Positions 3,990-56,571 of a stretch of DNA of 64,000 nt are shown here, piece by piece. Position 1 is the first letter of the stretch, and each line of letters begins with the position of its first letter. The translations under genes were made by a program, and so were the position numbers. Source of the DNA: Diphasiastrum complanatum (Eukaryota; Streptophyta; Lycopodiopsida; Lycopodiales; Lycopodiaceae); the NCBI GenBank assembly GCA_029204225.1, contig CM055096.1, positions 32,437,076 to 32,501,075 on the forward strand, written 5' to 3'. The notes under the pieces are model-generated. The model did no database searches and had not been told where the DNA came from. It saw only the letters and a program-made list of their open reading frames with translations.

Positions 3990-5791
<1,802 letters not shown>

Positions 5792-8100: not shown

Positions 8101-9427
<1,327 letters not shown>

Positions 9428-23780: not shown

Positions 23781-24181
23781 TGTTGAAGAGTAATGCCTAT
23801 TTTACCCCTTTTTTGGCTAAGCATTAGTTAAGTTGTACATAACTCATGGGGCATGTTTTAATTAAATGCATGACCCCCCCTTTTTGTTAAGTTATGTAAA
23901 TTAGTGCAAGTGGCCCACTTGGCCAAGTAGCTCACTCCCATGGTTGACACCTAGACTTTCCATGCATGTAAAGGAGGTGCTTGCCTCACAAGGGATTTGG
24001 AGGACCCAAGCCCTCCTCTCTCTTACCAGCAATTCATTTCTTCTTGAGACTTTTGAGTTTGTGAGATGCTCATGCAATTCTCCTTGTGTGTGATATTTCC
24101 ATAGCCAAGTTTTCTCAAGCTTTCATAGTTGATCTAGCATCTGAGTTAAGATACTCCATAGCTAGGTCTTGTAATTCTTCA
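23781..24181 (+). repeat. 5' LTR of the copia element
   Basis: Starts TGTTGAAGAGTAATGCC, ends TAATTCTTCA, and so has TG...CA ends. Differences from the 3' LTR include a C run of 7 against 8, small changes near 24009-24030 and one near 24060. Confidence 0.95.
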
Positions 24182-24194
24182 TGGTATCAGAGCA
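24182..24194 (+). other. Primer-binding site of the copia element
   Basis: TGGTATCAGAGCA directly follows the 5' LTR, complementary to the 3' end of initiator methionine tRNA. Confidence 0.93.
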
Positions 24195-24649
24195 GGTTGT
24201 CTAGCCTGTGAGTCTGAGAGTGAGAGAAACTTCAGTGCTTAGATTCTTGAGAAGATTCTTATCTTCTACAAGCACCTCAATCTTGAAAGAGGGAGCATTT
24301 GATCTACAGGTGTCAGATCAGGTGGAGTCTTGCACTGTTGGTGAGCTATTGGCAAGGGGAGTGGGATGATCCAAAAACTTTCTAAATCTGGCTAAGTTTT
24401 GGAGAGTTTTCTGGAGGAGCTTACACAAAAGTAGGGCGCACTTTCTGTAGGGGCTTCTGGTTTCTGTTCCAGTGGAGCCTAGTGCTTGTGCTAGTGAGGC
24501 CACACCAAGTGGCAAAGACAAAAGCAGGAGCTGAAGGGTTGCCTTGAAGTGGCTACATACCCTAGTTTGGGGTTAAACCCTTGTTGCTGGAAGCTGTTCT
24601 TTTCTGATCTCTTTCAAGTTGAGCTTCTGTTTTAAGCACAGATTTTAGC

Positions 24650-27600
24650 ATGGCAAGTCTTGGGGAGAGTTTGTTGGGTGAATCTAGCAAACTAGATGGC
24701 ACAAACTACAGAGTGTGGAAGTTCAAGATAGCCAATATCTTGATGGATAAGAATTGCTGGGAGGTCATGACAGGTACAGAACCTGTACCAACATCTGATC
24801 CTGAATTGAAGGACTACATGAACAGGAGACATAAAGCTCATAGGATAATCAATCTTTCTGTCAAGGACAATATTATTCCTCACATTTGCAATGCAAGGGA
24901 TGCAGCTGATGCTTGGACAATTCTGAAGTCTATGTTTGAAACAGTGGATTCAGCCAAGCTGGTGTATTTGCAAAACAGGTTACATACTCTCAAGATGGAA
25001 GCAGGTGCAACAATTGGTGATCATATTACAAAGGTCAAGGACCTATTGGATCAGCTTGCTTCAGTTGGAGAGAAAGTAAGTGACAGGAGTATTGTTCCCA
25101 TAGTCTTGAACAACTTGTCATTCAACTATCAAGACTATGTGATGTCCCTTTCTGCTAGGGAGAAACTCCCAACCTTTGGGGAGTTATGTGGTCTTCTTTT
25201 ACAGGAGGAGATGAGAAGGAAGAATCTTTCTGAAAGGGAAGATAATCCAGAGCTTGCATTTGCTTCTAAGAAGAAGCAAAACTTTCAGAAGAAAGGCAAA
25301 GGCAAAAAGAAGAACTCAAAGCAAAGCTTGGAGCAGCAGGTGTCCAAGTTACAGGTTGGAGAGGAGTCAAGCACCAATTCCTCATCTACACCCAAGAGGA
25401 AGGGCAACTGCAACTATTGTGGTAAGTATGGGCATTTTGCTTTTGAATGCAGGAAGAAGCAAAGTGATCAGAAGAAGGGAAAGAACCAGCAGAGTCACTT
25501 TGTTGACAAAGTTGCAGAGGAGGAGCAATCTGGTGTGCTTGAGCTATTCACCGCAGCCCTATCATCTGAATCCACATTTGGTGGATGGTACATTGATTCT
25601 GGAGCCTCAAAGCACATGACACCTCATAGAGATTGGTTCAGCACCTATGAGGAGACAGAAGATAGCCAGCATGTTTGCCTTGGAGATAATTCTACACGTA
25701 TGGTGAGGGGCAAAGGTACAGTTGCAATACAGCTATCATCAGGTGAGGTGAAGGAAATTAAAAGTGTGTTGCATGTACCAGGGTTGGCTAAGAACTTGTT
25801 ATCTGTTGGTGCCATTACCAAACAGAACATGGTGGTAGAGTTTAATGATTCTAAATGTTTGGTAAAAGATAAAGAGAAGAACTTCAAACTGGTAGCCAAG
25901 GGAATGCAAGAAGGAGGTCTTTACAAGCTTTTCACAACCATTCCTAGCCAAGAGGCCTTGTCTGCAAGAGATACTAATCGGGACAAGCTTTGGCATGAGA
26001 GATATGGTCATTTGAGTTACAAAAGTTTGCAAGTTTTGAACAGGCACAAAATGGTAGTAGATCTTCCTAGCATTAAGTCTTCTTCAGATACATGTGAGGC
26101 TTGTGCATTAGGGAAGCAACAGAGGAAAAAGTTTCCAAAGGAGAAAGCTACCAGGGCCAAGGGCATTCTTGAACTTGTGCATTCAGATTTATGTGGTCCC
26201 ATGCAAGTCAAATCAGCAGGGGGGGCATACTATCTCATGACCTTCGTAGATGATTTCTCTCGGAAGGTATGGGTCTATTTTCTGAAACTGAAATCTGAAG
26301 CGTTCAAATACTTCAAACAGTGGGAAGCTATGGTGGAAAACCACACAGGAAAGAGGTTAAAGACTCTCAGGTCAGATAAGGGTGGTGAGTATATTTCTGA
26401 TGAGTTCAAAGATCTTTGCAAAGCATGTGGGATAAAGAGACAGTTTACTGCTCCACATACACCGCAGCAAAACGGCGTGGCTGATCGGAAAAACAGGTCT
26501 ATAGTTGAGTGTGCGAGGAGCATGCTCAAGGCAAAGGGGTTGCCAAATTCTTTTTGGGCAGAAGCGGTAGCAACTGCTGTTTTTCTATTGAATAGAAGTC
26601 CAACCAAAGCAGTTGAAGGAATCACGCCAGAAGAGGCATATAGTGGCAAGAAGCCCAAAGTGGGCAGCCTTCGAGTATTTGGGTGTACAGCATATGCACA
26701 TATACCAAAGGACTTGCGGAAGAAACTTGATGCAAAATCCGTAAAGTGTGTCTTTCTTGGGTATAGTGAAGGTGAGAAAGCTTATGTGCTATATGATCTC
26801 GAAAACAGGAGGAAGATCCTAAGTCGAGATGTCATCTTTGATGAAGAGCATGCACCCAAGATACAGGAGCAGGAGAAGGAAGGAATTACTGAGTTCATAC
26901 CCTTGATTGATTCCACGGATGAGGATCCTAGTCAAGAGTCCTGTAAGCCTCAAGTGCAGGAGCAACAACAGGAAATCGAACCTACTAGTTCGAGACCTCT
27001 TTTTGGCCAAGTACCAGAAGCAGAAGTTGGGGACAAACGGAAGACTAAAACAGTACCATGGGATACGTGGTCACCATCCACATCACCTACTGCTAGGAAG
27101 AAGCTACCTAGGTGGTATTGGGAAACAATCAAAGAAGGTCAAATGATTGAAGAAGGAGAGAGCAGTGAACAGGGTGTCAGAAGATCTCTTAGGTCTCATG
27201 AGAGACAAGAGACTAACTTTGCTCTTATGTCCACTATTCTGAATGCAGATGAGCCACAATTCTTTCATGAAGCCGTGAGAGAAAAGGTATGGCAACATGC
27301 CATGCAGGAGGAGTACGACTCCATTGTCAAGAATGACACATGGGAGCTCACTACATTGCCAGAAGGGAAGCAACCAATAGGTTGCAAGTGGGTCTATAAG
27401 ACCAAGTTTCATGCCAATGGAACAGTGGACAAGTACAAGGCAAGGTTGGTGGCGAAAGGCTATGCTCAGCAAGAGGGGCTAGACTATGATGAGACATTCG
27501 CACCTGTTGCTAAAATGACATCTATCAGGACCGTTTTGGCTATAGCCTCATATTTTGATTGGGATGTCCATCAAATGGATGTCAAGAGTGCCTTTCTTAA

Positions 27601-28796
27601 TGGGCACCTACAGGAGGAGGTTTACATGGAACAACCGCAGGGATTTGAAATAACAGGCAAGGAGAATCTGGTTTGCAGGCTTAGGAAAGCCTTGTATGGG
27701 CTCAAACAGGCGCCAAGGGCTTGGTATAGCCGAATTGATGAGTACTTTGCAAGGCAAGGGTTTGAGAAGAGTAAGTATGATTGCAATCTTTATGTCTTCA
27801 GGGAAGGAGAAGACTTTGTGGTTGTTGTGCTCTATGTGGATGATCTACTCATCACGGGAAGCAATAAGAAGCTTATTGCTTGTGTTAAGAAGAATCTTTC
27901 TAATGAGTTTGAAATGAAAGATTTGGGTTTGCTACACTATTGCCTAGGAGTTGAAGTTTGGAATGGAAAGCGTTGTCTTTTTATCTCACAGGCAAAGTAT
28001 GCACAGAAATTATTGAAGAAGTTTAACATGCAAGAAAGCAAACCAATCAGCACACCCATGGATGCAAGCAACAAGCCATCAAAAGATGATGGTCCAGCAT
28101 TTGCAGATGAGACGCTCTATCGTCAGTTAGTGGGCAGCCTGATTTACCTTACTACCACCAGGCCAGATATTGCTTATGCGGTTGGAATCGCAAGTCAATA
28201 CATGTGTAAGCCTACCGAAGCACATTGGAAGGCAGCCAAGCGGATCCTACGATATGTGAGAGGGACAGTGACTTATGGGATTGGATACACGGATGACGGG
28301 AACCTTCAGCTGGAAGGCTATTCAGATTCTGATTGGGCAGGTGATAGAGACGATCGGAGATCGACGACAGGCTATTGCTTCAGCCTAGGTTCAGGGGCTA
28401 TATCGTGGTGCAGTAAGAAGCAGCCTACTATTGCTCTATCGTCTACCGAAGTTGAGTACAGGGCGACTACGAGGTCCGCCTGTGAAGCCATTTGGTTACG
28501 CCGTCTACTTGAGGACATGCAGATTGCTCAAGTAAGAATTGTTACATTGTGATAACCAAAGCTGCATTCAGCTTGCAAGGAATCCAGTCTATCATGCACG
28601 GACAAAACATATAGAGGTGGACCAGCATTTTATACGAGAGAAAGTGCACAGTGGGGAGATCGAGCTAGTTTATTGCGACACCAACGACCAGACAGCTGAT
28701 ATTTTTACTAAACCACTTAGTAAAGATAAGTTTGAAAAGTTCAGAACTTTGTTGGGTGTCAGTTTGAATAAAATTGCCATTAAGGGGGGGTGTTGA
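24650..28796 (+). CDS. Copia gag-pol polyprotein, one frameshift
   Basis: A 1,300-codon frame (24650-28552) plus an 85-codon continuation (28539-28796). Order: gag with a CCHC knuckle (C254, C257, H262, C267); protease with DSG at 316-318; GAG-pre-integrase with LWHERYGHLSY from about 447; integrase with D513 and D576; RT with VHQMDVKSAFLNG, YGLKQAPRAW and YVDD at 1062-1065; RNase H with DSDWAGDRDDRRSTTGY and STEVEY. The domain order (integrase before RT) is that of Ty1/copia. Two defects: the third catalytic integrase residue, normally Glu in NGVAERKN, is Asp here (D612, NGVADRKN), and near 28530-28540 the frame shifts before the HCDNQS motif, cutting the last RNase H Asp off the polyprotein. 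Everything else is intact. Confidence 0.95.
28783..28790 (+). other. Polypurine tract
   Basis: AAGGGGGG immediately before the 3' LTR, the primer site for plus-strand synthesis. Confidence 0.9.
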
Positions 28797-29191
28797 AGAG
28801 TAATGCCTATTTTACCCCTTTTTTGGCTAAGCATTAGTTAAGTTGTACATAACTCATGGGGCATGTTTTAATTAAATGCATGACCCCCCCCTTTTTGTTA
28901 AGTTATGTAAATTAGTGCAAGTGGCCCACTTGGCCAAGTAGCTCACTCCCATGGTTGACACCTAGACTTTCCATGCATGTAAAGGAGGTGCTTGCCTCAC
29001 AAGGGATTTGGAGGACCCACGCCTCCTCTCTCTTACTAGCAATTCATTTCTTCTTGAGACTTTTGAGTTTTTGAGATGCTCATGCAATTCTCCTTGTGTG
29101 TGATATTTCCATAGCCAAGTTTTCTCAAGCTTTCATAGTTGATCTAGCATCTGAGTTAAGATACTCCATAGCTAGGTCTTGTAATTCTTCA
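28791..29191 (+). repeat. 3' LTR of the copia element
   Basis: 401 bp, TG...CA ends, about 99% identical to the 5' LTR and followed by the AGTCA target duplication. Confidence 0.95.
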
Positions 29192-40800: not shown

Positions 40801-40983
40801 TACTTGCATATTTGGTTTGGTTCATGGATGACAGGAAAGCCTTTGATTCTGTCCGACGCTCCTTACTTATCCAGAGACTCCGAGACTTGGGTTTCTCTAC
40901 AGATATTATCCTAGCTGTCATGGCTCTCTATGAGAGGGTTTTGGGTTGCTTCCGTCATGGTAGTGGCATCTCTGAGCAGATCT

Positions 40984-41345
40984 GGAGTACTATTGGGGTT
41001 AAGCAGGGATGCTCTCTCTCACCAGTTCTCTTTGGATTTATATATTGACGAGCTAGAGCAGGTCATCTCTCAGTGTGGTGGGGATGGTTGTCGGCTTGGG
41101 GACATTCTGATTGCCATCCTTCTCTATGCGGATGATGTGGTACTAGTCTCCCGTACCAGAGAGATCCGGAGTACTATTGGAGTTAAGCAGGGGTGCTCTC
41201 TTTCACCAGTTCTCTTTGGACTATACATTGATGGGTTGGAGCAGGTCATCTCTCAGTGGGTGGGGACTATTGTAGGCTTGGTGACATTCTGATCGTCATC
41301 CTTTTCTATGCGGATGATGTGGTAGTCTCTCATACCAGAGAGGGA
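40984..41345 (+). repeat. Tandem duplication of the LINE RT palm segment
   Basis: Two ~184-bp units, each starting GGAGTACTATTGG, encoding motif B (VKQGC) through YADD to the conserved Thr-Arg-Glu. The units have diverged at scattered sites. Confidence 0.9.
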
Positions 41346-41908: not shown

Positions 41909-42618
41909 TCTCGAAGACCAAAATCATGGTCTTTAATACCTCTCGGGCCTTCATGCAGCGCCATGAGCTTACCTTTGATGGACAGCCCCTAGAGGTGGTT
42001 TCTTCATACACTTACCTGGGTGTGCTCTTTTCTAGTCCTACCCATATATTATGCAACTAGAGGGAGATATCACTGCCTATTCCAGGACATGCCTACTACA
42101 CTCAGATCACTGATCACATATGAGGACCCTCGCTGTGTTGAACTTATGCTACGAGAGATGGTCTTGCTGCGACAGGATATGTACCAGTTAGCTCACCAGC
42201 CACATCCTAGCTCTCAGGCTCAGATTACGTCTTTCTTCACCAGGAGACGGCCACGACGAGACCTCGGGTCTGATGACGACACACCCCCTCACAGATATCA
42301 GAGACAGTGTATCACCCACAGTCATGTGGCAGCTCGCACTTCCCGCCTTGTCACAAGAGCACAGTTTTCACCCTCTTAGACGACGTCAGCGACGGTCCAT
42401 ATTACCTCCTGCTACAGCTCGTATCACATCCTTTTCCAGCAACAGTGCTAGATGATATGACTCTATTCCTAGTAGCTATTTTGCTCCCACTCATGGACAG
42501 CTTGCAGTTTGTAGTTTACAGTTATATTATTCATCTTTTATGCATAGTTTTTTCTTGGAGACGTTTATATACGCTCCCATGGTTACCACATACTTGACAT
42601 GTACTCTTTTGGTCTTAT

Positions 42619-42632
42619 ATGCCTTTTGGCAT
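42619..42632 (+). other. LINE 3' hairpin, type A
   Basis: ATGCCTTTTGGCAT, a 5-bp stem with a TTTT loop, 12 nt before TATTAATAAAGC and the CT tail. Confidence 0.75.
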
Positions 42633-42682
42633 GGAAAAGATATTAATAAAGCTCTCTCTCTCTCTCTCTCTCTATGGGGGCC

Positions 42683-43835: not shown

Positions 43836-45725
43836 ATGACCACTTCTCCGGGACCTGATCAACCCCTGACAAGAGGCATTGATGAATTAGAAACGGAATT
43901 CCTGAGGTTCAGTAAAGGGAAAGAACCAATGGAAGTTGAAGAACATGAACAATTCGCCGAAGAACTCGACGAATTGGTTACCACGGAGCAGTTTCTCAAC
44001 TTGGTAACAGAAGTGGATGAACTGAAGTCGGCATTAACCAATTTCAAGTCCAGTGTGGACGACTCGTTCGCTGAACTCAAAGGCTTGATTTTGAGTTCCG
44101 CGAAAGGAAGCCTTCCCTCCACTTCTCAGTTGTCCCCTTCTCCACTTCCATCAGTTTCGGGTGAGCCTATGCGGTCTCACCCCAGTTTCTTTAAAGACTT
44201 AAAGCCTCCTACTTTTATAGGGGAAGAGAAGGATAGAAACGTAGATATTCTACAAACCTTCCTCAACAAATGGAAGAACATTCATGCTTTTAAACAGACC
44301 CCTGACCATTTGCAAGCTATCGAGGCCAGTCTTTCCTTAGGGCCCATGGCCTATAAGTGGTGGTTAAATCTCCAGGAGACTGGGCAGACTCCTCGATCAT
44401 GGAAGGCCTTTGAAGAAGCCTTCCTAAGAGAATTTCTACCTGAAAATGAACTTGATAGAGCCTGGGAAGCCTGGGAGAAAACAGTAATGGACAAGTCCCT
44501 AATCCAATATATCTCGCAGTATCGAGAGGCAATTTTAAAAATTAAAAATATGGATGATTATCAGAAAATCAGGGGATTCCAGAGTTGGCCCATTCCTCAT
44601 CGCCAGTGGACAGATATTTCTATGGACTTTATCCTTCGTCTTCCTCATACCCGCCATGGTCATGACTCTTGTATGGTGGTGGTAGATCGGTTCTCGAAAC
44701 AGGCACACTTTATACCGGTCCGTAGTACTATTACAGCTGAGCAGTGCGCACGTCTTTTTTTATCAGATATTTTTCGCCTGCATGGTATGCCACGTATTAT
44801 CCTATCTGATCGGGATAGTAAGTTTACATCTACGTTCTGGACATAGCTTATGCGTATTTTGGATGTACAACTTTTGATGGGTACTGCTTATCATTCTACT
44901 GTTGATGGGCAGACTGAGGTCCTTAATCGGATCCTTGAGGATTACCTTCGACATTTTGTTTCTCCTTTCGAGAAGGATTGGGACCAGCATTTATGTTTGG
45001 CAGAGTATAGCTATAATAGCTCTGTTAGTACCAGCACTGGAGTTTCACCTTTCTTATTGGCTCATGGGTATGCTCCACTTTTGCCAGGGGTGCCTCTTCC
45101 TCCTGATGATACACCAGTTACCATTGTTTATTTTTTATCCGGTGCTCGTGAGCTTATTGCTAGGGCTACTACTCACTTACAGCATGTTCAGCAGCGCTAT
45201 CAGACTTCTGTTGATCGTCATCGCCGTCATGTTGAGTTTCAGGTTGGTGATATGGTTTACCTCCGGTTACGCTTTGCACGTCATCACTTTGTTCAGGGTC
45301 ACGCTTCTACTGAGAAGCTTGCACCGCGCTATTATGGGCCTTACTGTATCTTGGATCGCCTCAGCCCTGTTACATACTGGTTACAGTTGCCTGATTCTAC
45401 ACGAGCTTGTGATATCTTTCATGTTAGCCTGTTACGAGCTGCCATTGAGGATGATGCTCCTCGCGATCTCACATTTCCTACAGAGCCAGAGCTGTTCCCT
45501 TTTTTGCCAGCCGCCATCCATCAGGTTCGCCTTTAGTACAGTCGACGTCGCAGGCAGGTTCAGTTTTTAGTACAGTGGGATGGTCGTCCTCTTGAGGAGG
45601 CCACTTGGGAGCCTATTGATGTGTTTTATCATACACCATTATTGGCAGATCAGGCTCGAGCCCTCATGGCTTTAGTTCTCTCCTCTACTACAGATGTCAT
45701 TGTAAATGTTCCCTCTGCTTCATGA
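43836..45725 (+). pseudogene. Chimeric gypsy gag-integrase-chromodomain frame
   Basis: A single reading frame of 629 codons broken only by two TAG stops (44844-44846 and 45534-45536). Residues 1-245 are gag: an acidic helical N-terminus, then [20 protein letters not shown] and [20 protein letters not shown]. At about 44570 gag runs straight into integrase ([59 protein letters not shown]). Zinc knuckle, protease, RT and RNase H are missing. After the second stop a chromodomain-like FLVQWDGRPLEEATWEP follows. Both stops could be CAG-to-TAG changes. The gag side adjoins a family-A LTR and the integrase side ends at a family-B LTR. Confidence 0.88.
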
Positions 45726-45942
45726 TTCGGCTAGCTATGACTATTCTTTATTGTCGTATTTGCTTAGTACTTGCTTTACACAATTATGATGCTTTTGGGG
45801 TATCTGTTGTGATGACTTATGTCCTCTCCATCAGTATTTCCATTAGTTCGTGATTTTTCAATATTTAGCATGCTTACATTATTGTTTTAGATAGTCATTA
45901 TGCTTGCTAGCCGGTGGAGGGCTTTGTTTTTCTGCAGGGGAG
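45726..45942 (+). other. Gypsy 3' untranslated region and polypurine tract
   Basis: Non-coding sequence ending GCAGGGGAG (about 45935-45943) just before the family-B LTR. Confidence 0.6.
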
Positions 45943-46315
45943 AGTTATGGACTTGGCTCATTACATTCGCCGCGTCCATTCTTTTAATGTTATTATGCAT
46001 AAGCAGGCCTAAGGGCCCTTTTTATTCATATACTGGCCTTGGGCCCTATTTGGTTATATTTTAGGACTTGGTCACATTGATTTGGAGTGGGGGTCCTCCT
46101 ATTGGGAGGGCGCACTATTTTCCCTCCAAATCCTTTTCCCTCCCTTTTTTTGAATCATCCATTTGATTCAGGGAGAGGGTATAAGTAGGGTAGCATTGTA
46201 TTCCTTTATTCAGTTTATGATGATTGCTCCTCTTTAGCCTCCTTAAGCATTCTCTTCCTGCTTTCTACCTTAAGTCCTGCTTTCTAGCATAGCTAGTGAA
46301 TCTTAGCTTGTAACT
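45943..46315 (+). mobile_element. 3' LTR of gypsy, family B
   Basis: Similar to 22316-22712 along most of its length, beginning AGTTATGGACT and ending TTGTAACT. The shared AGTTA...TAACT ends occur in two places with different flanks. Confidence 0.78.
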
Positions 46316-46379
46316 GTTTGGGTTAGAGGTATTCAGAATTCCCAAGATGCTGTTGGAGATTTAAGAAGTTCCTGGAAGA

Positions 46380-46920
46380 GAATCTTCAGCTTCACAGCAA
46401 AGGTATGGAAACTGCTTGGCGGCCTAAGAAGGATCTTGATACTCTTGTCATACGCTTCACCTCAGTGTCCCACCGTCGTGAAGTGTTGGGACAAAGATCG
46501 AAGCTGCGGGATACCAAAGTATACTTGGACGAAGACCTTAAGGCTTACTGTCATCCAGGTGCGAGAACGAAAAAAGGCAAGACAAGAAGCTGACAACTGA
46601 AAAGTGGCTTATCTATCGTGATGGCATTATCAGATTTGTAGTCGTAAACTTGTTGCCATTAACGAGAGTTTGAATTCTGAGATAGAATCAGAGTTAGAGA
46701 AACGAAGAGATGCCTAGTTGAACTTTTTTAGTGGCCTTTGTATCATATAATCTTGGCTATAAAATTCGCTTCTTAGTTAGCTATTTTGTTTTAGTTAAGT
46801 TGCTTGACGATATCGATTTTTCTAGGTTCCATCTTATCTGGTGTTTTGTTTGGCCTTATATGGCTTATGGCATGGAAAAGACGTTAATAACTCTTTCTTT
46901 CTTTCTCTCTCTCTCTCTCA
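46380..46920 (+). pseudogene. LINE copy d: ORF1 end joined to 3' tail
   Basis: 46405-46640 reads ORF1 C-terminal sequence: VIRFTSVSHRREVLGQRSKL, TKVYLDEDL, then after a frameshift YRDGIIRF-like residues, resembling the C-terminal domain of L1-type ORF1 proteins. There is no ORF2: from about 46690 it is 3' untranslated sequence ending with ATGGCTTATGGCATGG (weak hairpin), GACGTTAATAAC and a TTTC/CT tail. It could be an internally deleted copy or a short non-autonomous partner that uses the same 3' end. Confidence 0.72.
46859..46873 (+). other. LINE 3' hairpin, type A (weak)
   Basis: ATATGGCTTATGGCATGG; the stem is weaker than in other copies, followed by GACGTTAATAAC and a pyrimidine tail. 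Confidence 0.5.
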
Positions 46921-49195
46921 TGATGGTTCTCTAGATGAGCAGGCCACCTTCCTTTCCTGAACTCTCCATATTGCTACCTCTCTCTCCGTCCCCTCTAGAC
47001 GTTTCTGTCATAAACCCATCTCATCGCGTTCGTTGCCTATGGTATGATTGTGAGTGTCATCACCTTCATTTACGACTACAAATCTGATAATGCCATTACG
47101 ATCCGCTTCTCTTGCATACCAGTCGTCACTCCTATCACCATGCACTCCATCGTAAGCTCCTCTTTGGGAGCTTTTTGGTGTGAGTTCATTCCACGTGCTG
47201 CTCCACCCATCTTGTCAGACTTTCGGACTTGGACCGATTATGCCACCACTCTTTATACCATAGCTGTTGACACTCCCATCTCCATTTCTCCTCGTCCCTC
47301 TGAGTTTTCATTTTTTACCTCTAAAATGGTCCTAGCGGCCATTAAGAGATTAAAATCCCACTGCACTCCTAATATCGAGGATCTTGAATCTGAGTATGCT
47401 ATTGATACACTTTCTCCCATCTTGGCCACATTACTTAGCCGAGCCATTGTATATGGTTTCCCCCATCTCGATGTACTAACATCATGCATCCCATCCACAA
47501 AAGTGGTGATTCCATGAAACTTGATAACTACCGTACTATCATAATTGGTCATGTGATTGCGAAGCTGTATGGCACGATTTTATAGTCCGCTGTTAGTTCT
47601 GAGGCGGAATCTAGGAGGCTATTTGCCATATATGGGTCAAGCCGGTTTTAGGGCTGATCATTCTACCACAGATTATATCCTTACTTTCAAGGCTATCATT
47701 GAGGAGGCCAAGCATAGACGTGAGAGGGTCTTCTGCTGTTTGTGGATTTCCGGAGAGCCTTTGACTCTGTTCCACGCTCTTGGTTATCCAGAGGATCCGA
47801 GACCTGGGCTTTTCTACAAATGCAATGCTTGCTATCATGGCTTTTATATGAGAGAGTATTGGGTTGTTTCAGATGACTTGGGTATCTTCGAGCAGATTTT
47901 GAGTACCATTGGGGTGAAACATGGGTTATCGCTCAATGTGCTGGTGCTGGTTGCAGACTTGGGGACATCTTGATTGCTATCTTATTATATGTAGATGATG
48001 TGGTTTGGGTTTCACCAACCAAAGAGGGACTTCAGAGGCAATTACGTAGTCTCCATACCTTGTGCACCATTGGGGTTTGAAGGTTAACATCTTGAAGACC
48101 AAAATTATGGTCTTCAACATTTCTAGGGCTTTAATGCAACGTTAGGAACTTATATTTGACGGCCAGCCACTGGAAGTAGTATCATCCTACACCTATGTGG
48201 GGGTTCTTTTTTCCGGACCTATCTTATGTATGAGGTGAGTAGGTGTTGCTAGACTCGGGAAAGGATATTCTTCCCTTGTCCAGCTACAGAGGTTCTGCTT
48301 CATGAGATTTTTTTTGGATGCCCTAAGTAAATGTCGTCTTTTTGATACTATTGTGACTCCCACGGCCCCGTATGCAGCAAAGACTTGGTGTATTGGTATT
48401 GCTTCCTCAGATTTCTCTCGCCTGCAGGTTACCATGTTATCACATATGATCCGAGCTAAGTCCTCAGTTTGGCACAAATCATCCTTGCCGAGTTTGCAGT
48501 CACACCAGTCCAGCTTGCTGCCATCTTTCAGCTCATTACTTATATTAAGCGAGTTATGGAGTTCCCAGTTACAGAGCAGTGGTACTCTCCATTGGCACTT
48601 ATATCTTCACAACACCTTCACTCTGAGGGATATCAGCTCTCATGGTATTCTCAATGTTCGCGCATACTTGATACATTCGACATTTTCATCTTGCATCTCC
48701 CTACTGGTTCTCACCAGTATATTTGCCGGTTCCTTTATTGAGCTTATATTCAGGACACTTCGCATGGTGAGTTGGGGGTCAAACCCGACTTTCATCGGAC
48801 TCATTTCTTGGAGTTGGATACTGCTGGTCTGCCGATTCTACCTTGATATCTGGACTATGGTCTTTCGCATGGTCTTAGATTCCTATTGGGCCAGCTTAGA
48901 GTATTGTCACACCAGCTTGTAGTTGAGATGGGCCGTTTTCAAGGTATCCCTCGAGAGGAAAGGCTTTGCTAGGTTTGTCCTTTGTGAGAGGTCAAGACCG
49001 AGGACCACTTTCTTTTCAGATGTCCTATGTACTATGAAATCAGAGGGAGATTCTTTTGTCTCTTTAGAGATTCCCCAGTCACATTACGTTCCTACTTCAA
49101 AGAGCCTAGGCCATACACAACAACATCATACATCACAGCTCCAGATTACCTCTTTCTTCTCTGGGAGAAGATCTCGTGATGTCCTTGAGTCCGAG
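46921..49195 (+). pseudogene. LINE copy e: endonuclease linker, RT, C-terminus
   Basis: Starts directly after the CT tail of copy d. Frames in order: the linker (WYDCECHHLHL, GAFWCEFIPRAAPPILSDF), NYRTIIIGHVIAKLYGTIL, MGQAGFRADHSTTDYILTF, GVKHGLSLNVL (motif B remnant), LLYVDDVVWVS (catalytic YADD as YVDD), SYTYVGVLFSGP, then the C-terminal part (HEIILAEF-like, LHLPTGSHQYICR, RFQGIPREERLC). Many frameshifts. It ends near 49195 without untranslated region or tail, merging into copy f. Confidence 0.85.
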
Positions 49196-50660
49196 ATGAT
49201 GCATTTTATTATGATGGACAACAGTTGGAGATTGTTACCTCTTACACCTATCTAGGTGTATTATTCACCGGCCCCTTACTCACTTTTCGCTCTACTGCTC
49301 TATCTCGCCTGCGTAAGGGGCATGCTGCCTTGGTACATATGGAGAGAGTGTGTACTACTTACTATATCCATGATCTTGCTACTAGAGACCACCTTTTCTC
49401 TACAGTGGTCTCACCAGTGGCTATGCACTCGGCCTAGGGATATCTCAGGGTACTTGGAGAGACATCACTTGCCTGCAGGTCACCATGTTAGGAAGGACGA
49501 TCCGTGCAAAGCCATCAGTTCCTCATGAGATTCTTTTAGCGGAGTTTGCCTCACTCCCCATGGTGGTTGAGGCTTTGTTTCAGATTGTTACCTTTCTACA
49601 TCGCATTGAGACCATGGATTCTTGCAGATACGTGATGGCAACGCTTACTTCTTCTCAGACTATAGCTGGACAGCAGGCTAGATCTTCTTGGTACAATGAT
49701 GTGATGGCTTTCTTCCAGTCATGGGGCTTCTCGATGTTGGATCTCCCACAAGGCACTCATGCATTTATCAGACATAAGCTATATCGTAGATATTGTCACA
49801 TAGTATGGGATCGTCCTGATCATGGGAGAGTCAAGCTTACCTTTTATGGCGCACATATCACGCAGAGACAGTTTGGGACTTCCTATTAGACCTTTATATC
49901 TATAGAGCATCGGATATGCCAGGTATGCACATTGGGTGTAGTGGAGGATGAGTTCCATTTTATCTTCATTTGCCCTACATACTTTGAGATACGAGGTCGA
50001 TATCATTGTTTATATCGAGACACCCCTATTACTCTCAGTACCTTTTTGGAGTATCAGGATCCCAGATGTGTCGGCCTTTTACTACGAGAGATGCTTATGT
50101 TGAGAGCCTCTTTGCTACCATCGGAGAGTATTACTGATTCGGGCCAGCATCTCATTACTAGCTTCTTTCAGAAGCGGGAGCGCGATGACCTATCAGATGA
50201 TGAGACAGTCATAACGGTGAGGGCGAAGGCCCAGCGTGCCCAGCCACCACCTCTTGTCAGATCTACACGCGCCTCCAGAGCTACCAGAGCTCCTCGACCA
50301 TAGATCACATCTTCTATGAGTATCAGACGTTTTTTTCGAGATTGATATTTTACTCTTCCTTTTCCTTTTCTCAGCAGAGCAGGCGGTTAAGCTCTTGCAC
50401 CTGTACCCTCTTCAGAGTTGGAGGTTAAGCTCTTGTATATTTGCTCTTATATGCTTTTTATGACTCTATGTTAGATGTGTCTTTATCTAACTAGAGAGAG
50501 TTCTATATTGTCTTTTCCTCTTAGACTAGTGATTTTTTTTTTATGTTGTCCGACGTGGACAGTGATGCTACGAGATATGTACTTATTTATTTTGTCTTAT
50601 GTGCCCTTGGGCACTCAACAGACATTAATACATTTCTTTCTTTCTCTCGCTCTCTCTCTT
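49196..50660 (+). pseudogene. LINE copy f: C-terminal half with type-B tail
   Basis: Begins mid-ORF2 with FYYDGQQLEIVTSYTYLGVL and FRSTALSRLRKGHAALVHME, continues with IRAKPSVPHEILLAEFASLP, LPQGTHAFIRHKLYRRY, then the cysteine/histidine block ICQVCTLGVVEDEFHFIFIC and YFEIRGRYHCLYRDTPITL. ORF2 ends near 50300 with a basic tail (RASRATRAPRP). The ~300-bp untranslated region has two GGTTAAGCTCTTG phrases and ends with the hairpin at 50601-50614, GACATTAATACA and a CTTT/CT tail. It is 5'-truncated and frameshifted. Confidence 0.88.
50601..50614 (+). other. LINE 3' hairpin, type B
   Basis: GTGCCCTTGGGCAC, a fully self-complementary 14-mer, followed by CAACAGACATTAATAC and a pyrimidine tail. Confidence 0.75.
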
Positions 50661-50815
50661 GTTTATATGCATTGTTTTCTTTCTTGGAGACATTTATATA
50701 CGCTCCCATGGTTACCACATGCTTGACATGTACTCTTATTGGTTATATATGCCTTTTGGCATGGAAAAGACATTAATAAAGCTTTCTTTATTTCTTTCTT
50801 TCTTTCTCTCGTTAC
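50661..50815 (+). mobile_element. LINE copy g1: 3' end only
   Basis: About 155 bp matching the end of copy c (TCTTGGAGACATTTATATAC, GCTCCCATGGTTACCACATG) with hairpin ATGCCTTTTGGCAT at 50749-50762, GACATTAATAAAGC and a CTTT/CT tail. It begins directly after the CT tail of copy f. Confidence 0.85.
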
Positions 50816-50905
50816 CGTCATACTTGGATGCATTTTTGTCTTATATGCATTATGGCATGGAAAAGACGTTAATCAAGCTTTATTCCTTCTCTCTCTCTCT
50901 CTTCA
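50816..50905 (+). mobile_element. LINE copy g2: 3' end only
   Basis: About 90 bp starting GTTACCGTCATACTTGG with hairpin-like ATGCATTATGGCAT (50845-50858), GACGTTAATCAAGC and a CT tail. It begins directly after the CT tail of g1. Confidence 0.8.
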
Positions 50906-52415
50906 AAGACACTAAGATCTTCATGGATGATGATCTTACCTATATCCAAGTTGAAGAGCGACGCCAAGCATTCCAAACCGCCAAAGCTACCGGAAGATGG
51001 GTGATCTATTGTCATGGAGTTGTTCGGTACCTTGATGGTACTGCATCCGGAAACAACCTATAGGAAATTGGGGTCCTCGGGCATGGGAGCATCCCGGGCC
51101 CTTCCACACCACCTGCATCTTGGAGTATGGAACTGTAATGGCATACACTCATCATCCACGGGGGGCTGGAGTTCTTACCGATTTCATCACAGACAGAGAT
51201 ATACTGTTTTTTATGGAGACACATGAGAGCCTAGAGCGAGGACTACCTACATTTGCAGGCTACAGTTTATAGGACAGAGACTCGATCAGCAAGTGGCAGA
51301 GGTTCGGGTGGAGTAGAATGTCTTTATCGAGAGTCACTACAGCTAGCTATAGAGTTTATCCAACATGATTTACATGCACGATACATATGGATTCATATCA
51401 CTGGATGAGCTATTGGTTTGGATAGGGATCTCTTCATTGCTGCCTGTTTGTTCCCTCCAGAGTCCTCCTCTGCGGACGGATCTGCCTCTCCTTACACTGA
51501 TCTCTCAGCAGACATTGTCAGATTTACAAATCGGGGTTATGTCCTTCTCACGGGCGACTTTATGCAAGGACTGCTACCAGACAGGTGGATTTTCATGACA
51601 TTGATGTCCTATTATGTACATGAGCTATTGACTGCGAGGGTATTGGTATGACCATGACCTCAGAGGACATGATGGGCCCTATTACGAGCTATGACACAGT
51701 GTTGTTGACTATCTCATGGGGTCACCAGCTTTTATCCCGCTCATATAAGATTTCCACATTCTTCCCACCACCCTCTTCGATCACTCATTTCTATCTTTCA
51801 GTATAGGCTCCATCATGACTTGTCAACCACTGACTATTCCATTCATCTCTCGTGCACCCACGTACACTTTTGATTATCCCTACATTAAGACATACAGGAG
51901 GCCGTCAACTCATTTTTGTCATTTTCCACACCACACCCCGTTGGAAACACATGCTATCTTCCTTACCATTTGACTCCATACTGCTGCATCACTTTCCTTT
52001 CCCTCCAAACCACATCGGCTCCCACCCACTTTGCCACACCCTATCCGACCTCCCTGGTTTGACGTCGAATGTCGTTTTCTTCATCTCCAAGTCACCCAGG
52101 CTAGATTGCATAACACACATCTTCTTCCTACAGCCCGTCGATCTTTCCACCATGCCCTCTGTTGGAAGAAACGGGTGTATGAAACTCAAAAAGGGAAAAG
52201 CTTAGTCGATTCCCTTTGCAGTTCCTCCACCGGTGCTTTTTGGAGGGAATTCATTCCCCGTACCCCACCTCCTCTTCTCACTGACGTTTATACCTGGACA
52301 GTTTTGGAGTCGTTTATACGCTCCAAGGTTACCAAATACTTGACATGTATTTCCTTAGTCTTATATGCCTTTTGGCATGGAAAAGACATTAATAAAGTTC
52401 TCTCTCTCTCTCTCA
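50906..52415 (+). pseudogene. LINE copy h: ORF1 end, endonuclease, 3' tail
   Basis: Begins directly after the g2 tail with the ORF1 C-terminus (TKIFMDDDLTYIQVEERRQA, VRYLDGTASGNNL). ORF2 endonuclease follows in broken frames: LGVWNCNGIHSSS near 51115, FMETHESLERGLP near 51210, FIAACLFPPESSSADG, VLLTGDFMQG (GDFNA motif decayed), then the linker (RPPWFDVECRFLHLQVTQAR, GAFWREFIPRTPPPLLT). At about 52295 it jumps to the 3' end (ACAGTTTTGGAGTCG...), deleting RT. Hairpin ATGCCTTTTGGCAT at 52365-52378, GACATTAATAAAGT, CT tail. Confidence 0.87.
52365..52378 (+). other. LINE 3' hairpin, type A
   Basis: ATGCCTTTTGGCAT, identical to those at 42619 and 50749. Confidence 0.75.
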
Positions 52416-52741
52416 TCACAGCTTCTATGGGTATCAGACGTTTTTTCCGAGATTGACATTTTATTCTTCCTTTTTACTATCCTCAGCAGAGCAGGCGGTT
52501 AAGCTCTAGCACTTGTACCCTCTTCAGAGCTAGAGGTTAAGCTCTTATATGCTTTTTACGATTCTATGTTTGATGTGTCTTCTGACTAGCTAGAGAGATT
52601 TCTATATTGTTTTTTCCACTTAGACTAGCGATTTTTATGTTGTCCGACATGGACAGTGCTCCTACGAGATGTGTATTTAATTCTTCTGTCTTATGTGCCC
52701 TTGGGCATCCAACAGACATTAATGTAATTTCTTCTTCTTCT

Positions 52742-52821
<80 letters not shown>
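52416..52821 (+). mobile_element. LINE copy i: 3' untranslated region with long CT tail
   Basis: Begins directly after the tail of copy h (ATCACAGCTTCTATGGGTAT) and is nearly the same as 50304-50660 of copy f. Hairpin TGCCCTTGGGCA at 52696-52707, GACATTAATGTA, then (CTT)n and about 37 CT units to 52821. Confidence 0.9.
52746..52821 (+). repeat. (CT)n tail of LINE copy i
   Basis: About 37 CT units preceded by five CTT units. The following base begins LINE copy j. Confidence 0.95.
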
Positions 52822-52825
<4 letters not shown>

Positions 52826-54840
52826 CATGCGGAGACAGAGGAGTTATATGCTATGGGACAGGCAGGTTTTAGAGCAGGCTATTCCACAGCGGACCAAATA
52901 TTCATACTGAGGTGTATTATTGAGGCGGCGAAGTTCAGGAAACAGAGAGTCTATTGCTGCTTTGTGGACTTCCGCAAAGCATATGATTCGGTTCCGAGAC
53001 ACTTGCTGCTCCAGCGTTTGGCATCCCTTGGTTTCTCACAGGAAGTCTGCTATCATCACATTATACGAGAGTTTTGGCCCGATTCCGTGATGGAGATGGA
53101 TGGTCTTCATATATTCGTAGTACGGTCGGAGTAAAGCAGGGGTGCCCCTTATCACCCACCCTATTTGCTCTATACATTGACGACCTTGAGTGGATCATTC
53201 GGGAAGAAGGTGGAGATGGCTGTCCTCTAGCAGATCTTATTATCCCTATCCTTCTTTATGCAGATGATGTGGTTCTACTCTCTAGTTCAGCTGCAGAACT
53301 TCAGCGACGTCTGGATGCCTTGTATACTTTTTGTCAGATATGGGTGCTGATGGTGAACATTGGTAAGACTAAGGTTATGGTGTTTAACACCAACGCAGCA
53401 TATGAGAGACACTATGTTCTATTTTGATGGACAACTTCTAGAGATAGTGGCGTCTTACACATACCTAGGTATTCTCTTCTCTGGTCCATTGCTTTCTTTT
53501 AGATCAGCTGCATTGGCTAGGCTCCGCAAGGGGCACTCTGCTCTTGTTCAGATGGAGAGGTTTTCTACCACTTATTACGTGCATGACCCGGACACACGTT
53601 ATCGCCTCTTTTCTTCGACTGTTTCTCTGTATTCAGCAGAGACATGGTGCCCAGGTTTATCTAGAGACACTTGGAGTGACATCTCGCGTTTGCAGATTCA
53701 CATGCTTAGCCAGATGATTCGGGCCAAGCAGTCGGTTCCTCATGAGATTATTTTGGCGGAGTTTGCTTCTCCTCCACTGATTGTAGAGGCTATTTTCAGG
53801 ATCATCACGTTCATTCACAGAGTCTCAGAGCTTGATTCTTCCAGATACGTGGTAGTGGCTTTTACATCCTCTCGCACTTTAGCCGGGCAGCGTGCTAAGT
53901 CTTCATGGTTTCAGTATGCTTCGGACTTTCTGCATAGCTGGGGATCATCTATGTCTGACCTCCCAAATGGGACTCATGCGTTCATTCGCTGACAGATCTA
54001 CAGAGCATACATACATACTGTTTGGTCTCACCTGGATCCCTCACGGGTTAAGCTTTAGTTCTACCGCATTCACTTGCTTCACCTGGATGCTTTAGGGCTT
54101 CCCGTTAGACCGAGTTATCTCTCTCATCAGCTTCTGGTCTCTTCTCATCAGCTAGCTATTGAGACCGGTAGATACACAGACACGCCACGACCATTACGGA
54201 TCTGTTAGTGCTGTACTCTACATGAGGTTGAGGATGAGTTTCACTTTATTTTCATATGTCCAACTTACTATGAGATCAGAGGCAGATACCACTGTCTCTA
54301 TCGAGACACTCCACTCACGCTTGGTTCCTTCTTTGCCTATCCAAATGTGAGATGTGCTGGTTTACTTTTGCGAGAGCTGTTCTCTTTGAGATCTTCACTT
54401 TTGTCAGATGATTAGGATGTTGACCGCAGCCAGCCACATATTACACTTTTCTTTCAGAAAAGAGCTAGGGAGGATACTTCGATAGTGAGATTGACATTCC
54501 AGCTCGTCGACCGAAGCTCCAGCGTCTTCCTCGACCATCCAGAGTTCGTCACCAGAGGCCACCAGGTGCCTCACACCAGATCACACAGTTTTTCTCTCTC
54601 AGTTAGTGAGTTTTATTCCTCCGCGTAGCTGGTGGTTAAGCTACTGCTTTTGTACCCTCACCATAGTTGGAGGTTAAGCTTTGGTTTTTATTTCCAATTT
54701 ATCTCTGTTTTTGGTTTTAGCTGATAGAAATAAGTCCGACATGGACACTGCCCCTTTTTGATGTACTTTTTCTTTGTCTTATGTGCCCAAGGGCACTCTA
54801 CAGACATTAATATATTCTATTCTTCTCTCTCTCTCTCTCT
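52822..54840 (+). pseudogene. LINE copy j: best-preserved RT to 3' end
   Basis: Begins directly after the tail of copy i, inside ORF2. RT motifs: MGQAGFRAGYSTADQIFILR, CCFVDFRKAYDSVPRHLLLQ (palm A), GVKQGCPLSPTLFALYIDDL (about 53128), LLYADDVVLLSS (YADD at 53257-53268), then NIGKTKVMVFNTNAAYERH. After a frameshift near 53400: YFDGQLLEIVASYTYLGILF, IRAKQSVPHEIILAEFASPP, LPNGTHAFIR, then decayed frames with HEVEDEFHFIFICPTYYEIR and GRYHCLYRDTPLTLGSFF. Only about two frameshifts lie in RT, so this is the youngest-looking LINE. Untranslated region from about 54605; hairpin GTGCCCAAGGGCAC at 54783-54796, GACATTAATATA and a CT tail. Confidence 0.92.
54783..54796 (+). other. LINE 3' hairpin, type B
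   Basis: GTGCCCAAGGGCAC: the stem matches the copy at 50601 exactly while the central TT is changed to AA. Confidence 0.75.
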
Positions 54841-55575
54841 ACTTATACCAAGCATATATTTACAGAGTCCAGGCACTTCTAGATGTAGAGGGGAGATATA
54901 CACAAAGCATTCCCTTCTTCACACTATCTTCATGATCAGGGCTACAGGCTGTCATGGTTTTCTCAGGCAGCTGGGTTCCCAGTCTTGCCACATTACTTGG
55001 ACTTAGGATTATCACATAGCCTCAGATTCACATTGGGCCAGCTCCGCGTATCGTCACATTAGTTGGCTATTGAGAACGGGAGGTTCCATGGTATTCCAAG
55101 AGAGGAGCGGATCTGCCATTTATACTCTTTGAGTGAGGTGAAGTTTGAGGAGCATGTTATCTTTAGGTGCCCTGTATACTATGAGATTCGAGGGAGATAC
55201 TATTGCTTGTTTCGAGACACCCCCACCACACTATGATCACTCATAGCATATGAGGACTCCTGTTGTGTTGCACTTAAGGTACGAGAGATGTTCCTACTAC
55301 AACGAGATGTATGTTAGATAGCTCAGCAAAGTCATCTTACCTCATCCTTAGATTACCTCTTTCTTTACCACGACGGAACCCAGAGTGTGGTGATGATGAT
55401 GAGGATGACAATGTACCTATTCATAAAGATCAAAGGCAACGCACCACTCTTCGCAGATCGAGTTATTCGACCTGTCATGCGGAGACACACATCTCATCCT
55501 CCTAGATGACGTCAGCAGCTACCAGAGTACCTCATATTGCAATTCATAGTGCATCTTTTTATTATAGCTATCAGT
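54841..55575 (+). pseudogene. LINE copy k: ORF2 C-terminus
   Basis: Begins directly after the tail of copy j. Broken frames carry the C-terminal block in order: a GRFHGIPREER-like start (about 55078), the Cys/His region with EVKFEEHVIFRCPVYYEI (about 55135-55185) and GRYYCLFRDTPTTL. It ends near 55575 with no hairpin or tail. Confidence 0.78.
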
Positions 55576-56571
55576 AGCAGGACATGATGACAGTGATATA
55601 CCTCATTTTTGACATTTAGTAGCACTTATGCTCCAATATATCTCGTCTCATTTATTTCAGTTAGTATGTAGATATGTTGTTTCTTTACCCCTCATTGCAA
55701 AGTACATGTGATGAATTGATGTGATGTGGTTGACAAGATGTCTTTTCTTTGCATGCAATTTGATTTTTCCGCAAGATCTAAATAGTACATCCATCACTTC
55801 ATGCATGTAAGTAAAATTCCCTACTTCTAACTACATGCATGTATTCTTCCCGTTGACGTCATTGCATGTAATGGTTAATGCTTACTTTTAGTACTTTTGA
55901 CTTCATAAGTCCAATCTCACTTATTTGGTTCACACAATAAGTGAATCGTACATGGAGGACGACATTTTATCATGGGTGAGAATGACTTTCATGGCCCTAT
56001 CCTCTGCTTTATGAAACTATTTTGTTGATAGAGATTGTGTCGACCTTGAAGCATCGCCATTATCTCATTTTCTTAGATCTCATTGAGGAGTTCAATCGAT
56101 GTTTATGCAATATTGAAAGAATCAAGGTGCCCTTGAGTGGATAGAACTATCTTCTCTTGGATGACACTCACACATTTCATGCAGTAAGGATTTTTTTTGA
56201 AACTTCACATGGTGCTCTTTCATAGATTTCATAGGAAGGTCAATAATAAGCAATACTTGTTGCTGTGATTCGTAATACCATGTTTTGATCATATTGGCTT
56301 GTTCAATGGCACACATCTCTTTGCCATTTGTACTTGAGCTTGGAACATGCACATCATGTACTTGGCATGTGATTATTTAACCTTTGCTTACATGTGAAAA
56401 TGCATGTAGTGGACAAGGCTCTCTTATTTTGATGGTTGTTACAAATTATGCAATTGTTGTTGCATTGATGAGTTTAATGTGTCCCACTATGAACTAGTTT
56501 TGTTATTGCTTTTTGTTTGTCTCTTTTTGTTTTTGTATGTGTGGCTAACACTATGATGTGCATCATTACAG
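55576..56571. other. 3' end of intron 3, no gene
   Basis: AT-rich intron sequence, ATGCATGT-rich around 55800-55870, with a T-rich stretch before the CATTACAG acceptor. Confidence 0.55.

Follow-up and report, generated by a model that had tools for sequence, protein, structure and literature searches.

The 64,000-nucleotide stretch of Diphasiastrum complanatum DNA analyzed here (the window; contig CM055096.1, positions 32,437,076 to 32,501,075) contains a stack of long interspersed nuclear element (LINE) copies in which piece after piece begins at the pyrimidine tail of its predecessor. The LINE, which carries a predicted APE endonuclease, and a shorter form with only the first open reading frame (ORF1) probably integrate by target-primed reverse transcription with a preference for (CT)n/(GA)n tracts. 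The evidence consists of stacking, a same-strand bias, CT enrichment to the left of 5′ ends, and one pair of filled and empty loci. In the proposed mechanism of target-primed reverse transcription, the preferred targets would be (CT)n/(GA)n tracts, both in ordinary microsatellites and at the tails and left edges that earlier copies provide, and the pyrimidine tail of the RNA would pair with the nicked purine strand. An insertion within (CT)n would leave CT on both sides, so that the site would stay usable and copies would pile up head to tail in a single orientation. RNA-tail annealing and an endonuclease that prefers (GA)n would be expected to leave identical traces, and the long (CT)n may belong to the RNA, the target, or both. 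An earlier note had described a (CT)n-homing, self-stacking LINE; the preference and the stacking extend beyond the window, while the left flank is not constant and CT is not required.

The window was compared with itself, and positions 45001-56400 were read. The list of tails was preselected for pyrimidine-rich tails and therefore has no bearing on the absence of poly(A). Eight pyrimidine tails were found in the window, seven of which lead directly into a LINE piece on the same strand. The pieces extend through ORF1, endonuclease, linker, reverse transcriptase (RT), C-terminus, and 3′ untranslated region (3′UTR), and are as follows:

42536-42673, + strand: subfamily-B 3′ end with CT tail, the exception with no recognizable LINE after it (self-comparison, tail list).
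46380-46919, + strand: 3′ part of an ORF1-only LINE from the ORF1 C-terminus to the 3′UTR (3′ end 46888), with a mixed CTTT/CT tail at 46889-46919; no ORF2 match between; similar to 50834-50902.
46920-49191, + strand: degenerate LINE piece (linker, RT, C-terminal region; RT-like frame 47557-47973) that starts at the preceding tail and joins the next piece without CT.
49192-50660, + strand: subfamily-A LINE piece, 3′ end 50629, tail 50630-50660; its 3′ end has close relatives at 26 other places listed.
50661-50810, + strand: subfamily-B 3′UTR piece that starts at the preceding tail, 3′ end 50777, tail 50778-50810 mostly of TTTC units; 89% identical to 42536-42673.
50811-50904, + strand: very short LINE 3′UTR piece that starts at the preceding tail, 3′ end 50873, CT tail to 50904 (self-comparison, tail list).
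50905-52414, + strand: LINE piece from the ORF1 C-terminus through the endonuclease to the linker (50905-52303), joined without CT to a B-type 3′UTR (52304-52393) with a CT tail to 52414 (self-comparison); it may be one copy with an internal deletion.
52415-52821, + strand: subfamily-A-like 3′ piece that starts at the preceding CT tail, 3′ end 52723, tail of (TTC)n followed by (CT)38 (self-comparison, tail list).
52822-54840, + strand: LINE piece from the RT domain to the C-terminus that starts at the preceding tail, 3′ end 54811, CT tail to 54840 (RVT_1 E 6e-8 and 8e-15).
54841-55575, + strand: C-terminal LINE piece that starts at the preceding tail, with no tail of its own recognized; similar to 48851-49076, 49904-50026, and 42045-42245.

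All seven junctions that the earlier note had placed between a tail and the next LINE are present, about 1-6 nt from where it had put them. The tails end at 46919, 50660, 50810, 50904, 52414, 52821, and 54840, and the next piece begins immediately after or within a few bases. Successive pieces share one orientation and start in the linker, 3′UTR, ORF1, RT, and C-terminus, so the self-comparison bears out the claim that the new copies are truncated at different points. The two mixed CTTT/CT tails that had been described are found at 46891-46919 and about 50787-50810; a third mixed tail lies at 50630-50660, and the one at 52728-52821 opens with (TTC)n. Seven of the 10 LINE starts in 46380-55575, picked by eye and including a doubtful one at 47925, lie within 6 nt of a tail end, a number that none of 200,000 random placements reached (maximum, three). 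The same stretch is held by a second contig, C961 (locus L009), at 99.4-99.7% identity, its CT tracts differing slightly in length. On this contig six junctions recur and the seventh, at 54840, lies beyond the part that was fetched; a slip of assembly is therefore unlikely and was rejected as the origin of the stack.

The self-stacking proposed in the earlier note extends well past the window, as seen in the right flanks of subfamily-A copies and in close pairs of subfamily-B 3′ ends. Labels beginning with L denote loci taken from the genome and those beginning with B denote subfamily-B copies; C1, C7, and C961 are contigs. A right flank of 1.5 kb or more was available for 13 independent subfamily-A tails, and ten of them have a LINE in the same direction behind them (L013, L014, L015, L017, L018, L019, L021, L024, L026, and L028), and the right flanks of L012, L022, and L023 are not classed as LINE. 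The first coding match behind the tail is ORF1, after a leader, in L014, L018, L021, and L026, and the LINE match of L028 starts about 100 bases past the tail; direct abutment in these five is thus presumed. The best and first blastx matches of the right flanks lie in the LINE's own direction in 12 of 12 cases (two-sided 0.0005; 13 with the self-match of L014, which was excluded), and none of these matches has the opposite direction. In set B, comprising 19 subfamily-B copies chosen before their flanks were seen, a LINE follows four tails (B047, B048, B053, and B056) within the roughly 320 to 470 bases read.

The genome pattern was derived from the first 100 listed places of the subfamily-B 3′ end on C1, the source of set B as well. 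These places are spread over 40 Mb and form 18 neighboring pairs at distances of up to 6 kb, versus 1.5 expected. Sixteen of the pairs share a strand and two are opposite, a bias equaled in 11 of 20,000 strand shuffles; it is gone farther out, with five of 14 pairs on the same strand at 6-25 kb and 11 of 22 at 25-200 kb. The joins of seven close pairs, the only part of them that was read, meet at CT by eye in five (L094, L095, L097, L098, and L100). The L096 pair is joined by CT plus a non-CT spacer, and the opposite-strand pair L099 is not stacked. A LINE coding match is present in the second copy of L098 and L100; none is found in the second copy of L097, which is 3′UTR.

The left flanks were tabulated against background, as the earlier note had suggested, in a sample of 44 copies from three sets. 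Set A consists of 21 independent subfamily-A loci (26 places found by similarity search, of which five are duplicates) and two window copies, set B was described above, and set C consists of two copies of a young two-ORF subfamily, one of which, in L010, came from a locus fetched for a stack. Loci L030, L031, L032, L029, and L035 were treated as duplicates of L028, L026, L023, and L034. Removal of 17 copies left 27 readable 5′ ends: the 5′ end was not reached in 11 (L017, L021, L026, L036, L041, B044, B047, B051, B054, B056, and B057), and six were set aside for a LINE-to-LINE join without CT (window 50629, L019, L038, L040, L059, and B046). B048 has such a join too, yet was kept as non-CT by its upstream end. 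Loci L016, L020, and L025 and the A and B copies of L004, L010, and L011 were omitted, having been found with a query that itself included a stack. Outside the count are also the B copies inside A loci (for example L013, L015, and L027), five further B places, and the rest of the listed B places. The background is the share of positions in the fetched LINE-rich sequence that lie no more than 2 nt from where a CT tract of at least 10 nt ends on its right.

A CT tract adjoins 11 of the 27 readable 5′ ends versus a background of 0.065% (binomial 1.1e-28), and the background falls to 0.031% without LINE tails. CT is thus in extreme excess in this sample. The 11 copies are L012, L013 (about 11 nt), L018, L023, L034, window 52723, L053, B045, B050, and the set C copies in L010 and L061. 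The result changes little when L038, non-CT by eye, is counted by its upstream end (11 of 28; 1.9e-28) or when the L010 copy is left out (10 of 26; 7e-26). No LINE was recognized on the far side of the CT in L012, L013, L018, L034, L053, L061, and B050; for L061, B050, and L053 a flank search beyond the CT gave no LINE match, two of these flanks being only about 60 bases long. Truncated copies have CT on the left in seven of 23 cases (binomial 1.2e-17) and copies with a 5′ leader in four of four (Fisher 0.019, in a small sample and after the fact). The leader copies are two two-ORF and two ORF1-only copies; the one on C7 was read at both ends only, which lie 4,914 bases apart versus 4,927 in L010. 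The left flank, which the earlier note had taken as the constant feature, was rejected as such on these counts: left-hand CT is strongly preferred but not obligatory. One further candidate, L039, was rejected as a CT left flank and counted as non-CT.

One pair of loci, filled and empty at a (CT)n tract, bears on the comparison that the earlier note had proposed. Comparison of 4,331 flanking bases shows 11 substitutions between L010 and L011. L011 consists of an earlier LINE 3′ end, (CTTT)5, 90 nt of uninterrupted CT, and a truncated subfamily-A copy. L010 has the same layout with a two-ORF LINE within the CT; 47 nt of CT precede this LINE, and its own tail TAATAATAATTCTAATTCTAATTC is followed by another 68 nt. 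Insertion into an existing CT tract, the tail of the earlier LINE, is the simplest reading. A sibling of the L010 LINE at L061 on C7 differs at five of 1,720 bases in its 3′ part and by four differences and one gap in 395 bases at its 5′ end. It too is bordered by CT tracts on both sides; it begins after (CT)n whose left flank gave no LINE match, and it is followed on its right by a LINE with stops and frameshifts, which indicates that the neighbors differ in age.

A number of observations weigh against a preference for (CT)n targets as the explanation of these patterns. Sixteen of the 27 readable 5′ ends lack CT (L014, L015, L022, L024, L028, L033, L037, L039, L042, L049, L055, L060, B043, B048, B052, and B058), though most tails have long (CT)n. 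CT-rich tails are found in most copies, including those with no CT at the left, so that the target by itself hardly accounts for the CT on the right. In the window itself, the tail at 42648-42673 has no recognizable LINE behind it, and at about 49191/49192 and 52303/52304 one LINE piece joins the next with no CT between them. Tails in L027, L028, and L043 consist of (TTTC)n only, and a nearly tailless copy (L058/L093) was inserted without CT and bears a TTTAAG duplication, so CT is not needed for integration. The CT left flank of L034 interrupts a repeat, by its look the leader of an LTR (long terminal repeat) element, that has no CT in its L027 copy; the left CT may therefore sometimes be made rather than found, by tail copying during template jumping or as a tract left by an earlier insertion. 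The 5′ boundary of the leader copies was read from the CT edge itself, and an element with its own 5′-terminal CT would look the same. The ORF1-only status of two leader copies, B045 and B050, weakens the statement on complete copies. Finally, a deletion between two CT tracts by exchange would leave the same picture as L010 and L011, and the pair alone fits both alleles and recent duplicates. No target duplication was seen by eye in L060 and B043.

An alternative origin of the stacks is template jumping, in which RT would run off one LINE RNA onto the 3′ tail of another and produce head-to-tail pieces in one event; a stop inside the tail would leave CT on the left without a target tract. R2 reverse transcriptase can jump between templates. 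Such jumping would account for copies with a 5′ leader that abut tails, for the left CT of L034 that its related repeat copy lacks, and for the LINE-to-LINE joins without CT. Set against this, L011 has both neighbors but not the young LINE of L010, and the L061 sibling adjoins a LINE with stops and frameshifts, so that these neighbors were probably not inserted together, and template jumping is an unlikely source of the pattern. Exchange or slippage between CT tracts, which would unite or duplicate LINE pieces and make stacking a by-product of recombination, is quite improbable. It is in line with the variation in CT length between the two contigs of the window region, with the second short copy of L095, which carries the same unusual letters as the first, as expected of a local duplication, and with L011 as a possible deletion product of L010. 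The neighbors in the window nevertheless belong to different subfamilies with different truncation points, the second copy of L094 differs from the first, and CT lies on the left where no LINE was recognized before it (L012, L018, L034, L053, L061, and B050). Individual junctions may have arisen by either of these two routes. An ordinary LINE with random targets, whose tails expand into (CT)n after insertion and whose copies cluster in a common genomic niche, would fit the 16 of 23 truncated copies without left CT and the fact that microsatellites grow, but the strand bias, 16 of 18 pairs up to 6 kb and absent at 6-25 kb and 25-200 kb, already makes it unlikely, and with the CT enrichment left of 5′ ends it becomes very improbable.

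Integration by target-primed reverse transcription with a preference for (CT)n/(GA)n thus remains the favored account. A stronger form of it is more tentative and somewhat doubtful: this vascular-plant LINE lineage and its ORF1-only followers would make their own landing sites, with leader-reaching integrations almost only in (CT)n, CT left on both sides by each of them, repeated reuse of earlier tails, genome-wide head-to-tail stacks steered by CT, and non-CT truncated insertions as an aberrant second outcome.

The anatomy of the element is best seen in L010, whose subfamily-C LINE carries two open frames, 366 and 1,183 codons long when counted from stop to stop. ORF1 comprises 306 codons from the first ATG within the 366-codon frame. 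ORF2 matches Pfam RVT_1 (E 1.6e-33), with a YADD box, and Exo_endo_phos (E 2.6e-14), the endonuclease bearing residues that we take to be those of the APE signature. With endonuclease and RT in one ORF and copies truncated at many points, the element can be classed from its predicted domains as a non-LTR retrotransposon with APE endonuclease. The best protein relatives are about 41% identical, R2 and human L1 are about level as matches in a PDB sequence search, and a quick tree with few named rows places the single Hibiscus LINE protein among the matches on a long branch, far from ORF2. No clade assignment resulted from the protein search, the PDB sequence search, or the quick tree.

In the LINE 3′ ends a common short hairpin precedes ACATTAAT or ACGTTAAT, and a pyrimidine tail follows. 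The stem varies in a paired fashion among subfamilies (TGCCC/GGGCA, ATGCC/GGCAT, CACCC/GGGTG, CGCCT/GGGCG, and ATGCT/AGCAT); 27 of 28 distinct 3′ ends have a stem of some kind and one has none, several of the printed stems lying in other registers. Among the 19 subfamily-B copies, chosen regardless of tail and flanks, 18 have pyrimidine-rich tails, one is almost tailless, and none ends in poly(A), which agrees with the earlier description of the 3′ ends as pyrimidine tracts. At least five CT units are present in 16 of the 19 tails by eye, and the right side is a more constant side than the left flank. An exact 24-base subfamily-B 3′ end has 2,211 + 2,303 = 4,514 matches, and the reversed control has none.

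The ORF1-only form takes part in the stacks beside two-ORF LINEs. An ORF1 match without an ORF2 match between the start and the 3′ end is found in B045, B050, and the copies behind the subfamily-A tails of L014, L018, and L021, and the 3′ ends are related. B045 and B050 were rejected as two-ORF LINEs since they match ORF1 only; behind the tail of L026 both ORFs match. The copies, assigned by an ORF1 match without an ORF2 match, are:

B045 (L045/L083), B050 (L050/L087), L014 7121-8470, L018, L021, and window 46380-46888: ORF1-only copies.

HAL1 (half-L1) is a mammalian ORF1-only element that shares its 3′ end with two-ORF LINEs. The present form is likewise an ORF1-only derivative with such a shared 3′ end, in a different lineage; the likeness is one of description.

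Several known elements resemble this LINE in one respect each. Zepp and ZeppL, L1 elements of green algae, are described as inserting into their own copies, with arrays mostly of 3′ pieces arising by 5′ truncation, clustered at the centromere or telomere, with a single cluster on each Coccomyxa chromosome (PMC8226300, PMC3446292); the Chlamydomonas relative L1-1_CR is described as ending in poly(A) (PMC3747384). Head-to-tail nesting in earlier copies is common to both. In contrast, the tails are of pyrimidines here, plain (CT)n sites are used too, and the 40-Mb spread of the listed C1 places speaks against a single cluster.

Simple-repeat targets are a second point of likeness. Kibi, a fish element of the Tx1 group, is said to insert in TC repeats, a motif identical to that used here. 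Togen is described as a (TG)n-specific non-LTR element and some HERO families as microsatellite-specific (PMC4640811). These elements, compared by description, are regarded as specific, whereas the present LINE shows a preference together with prominent self-stacking; the strict (TC)n insertion of Kibi is not found, with CT at 11 of 27 left flanks. The insertion into telomeric repeats typical of SART and TRAS was not noticed by eye among the left flanks, which are CT, LTR-element, or other sequence.

Among land-plant LINEs, almost all flowering-plant L1s are described as poly(A)-tailed and RTEs as having tails of (TTG)n or (TTGATG)n, and one plant L1 lineage as having a conserved 3′ end with a solid RNA structure (PMC3747384). 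A conserved, structured 3′ end is thus shared with that L1 lineage, while the tails here are (TTTC)n, (CT)n, or (TAATTC)n. No RTE-type (TTG)n or (TTGATG)n tail occurs in the 19 subfamily-B copies or among the tails of the other subfamilies, the latter preselected for pyrimidines.

By analogy, the element would work like both Zepp and the microsatellite-targeting LINEs; membership in either is not claimed. Microsatellite preference and self-nesting, known separately from animal and from algal LINEs, occur together here in a land plant. Titles and abstracts listed in searches of the open-access literature, which leaves most subscription journals uncovered, describe no such plant element. The 4,514 exact 3′-end matches and at least one young copy with open frames provide a natural system for comparing RNA tail and endonuclease as chooser of the target. 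Such an element could explain the joint growth of LINE stacks and long (CT)n tracts in a genome.

Some minor features accompany the LINE copies. The endonuclease/linker or a nearby coding region is recurrently joined to far-downstream LINE parts (window about 52303/52304, L059, L046/L084, L048/L086, and L038), and these joins are possibly internal deletions from splicing or template switching. The sequence right after the tails in L096, L100, L013, L033, and L040 has by eye a common GCGATGG-like start, possibly the shared beginning of 5′ leaders. A dispersed repeat with a tRNA-like stretch flanks two LINE copies, those of L013 and L055, on their left. On the minus strand of L039, at about 883-1168, roughly 280 bases of (CT)n follow an older LINE 3′ end and run into repetitive sequence without a LINE match. 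Long (CT)n tracts at 5450-5583 and 8613-8766 of the window (67 and 77 units) have no LINE recognized beside them and are candidate empty targets. The window also harbors a tandem duplication of about 182 bases, 86% identical, within a LINE RT region (40978-41342). A Copia-like element at 23781-29191 is probably a young insertion: its direct repeats (23781-24181 and 28791-29191) share 98.8% identity and enclose a single open frame of 1,309 codons (24623-28552).

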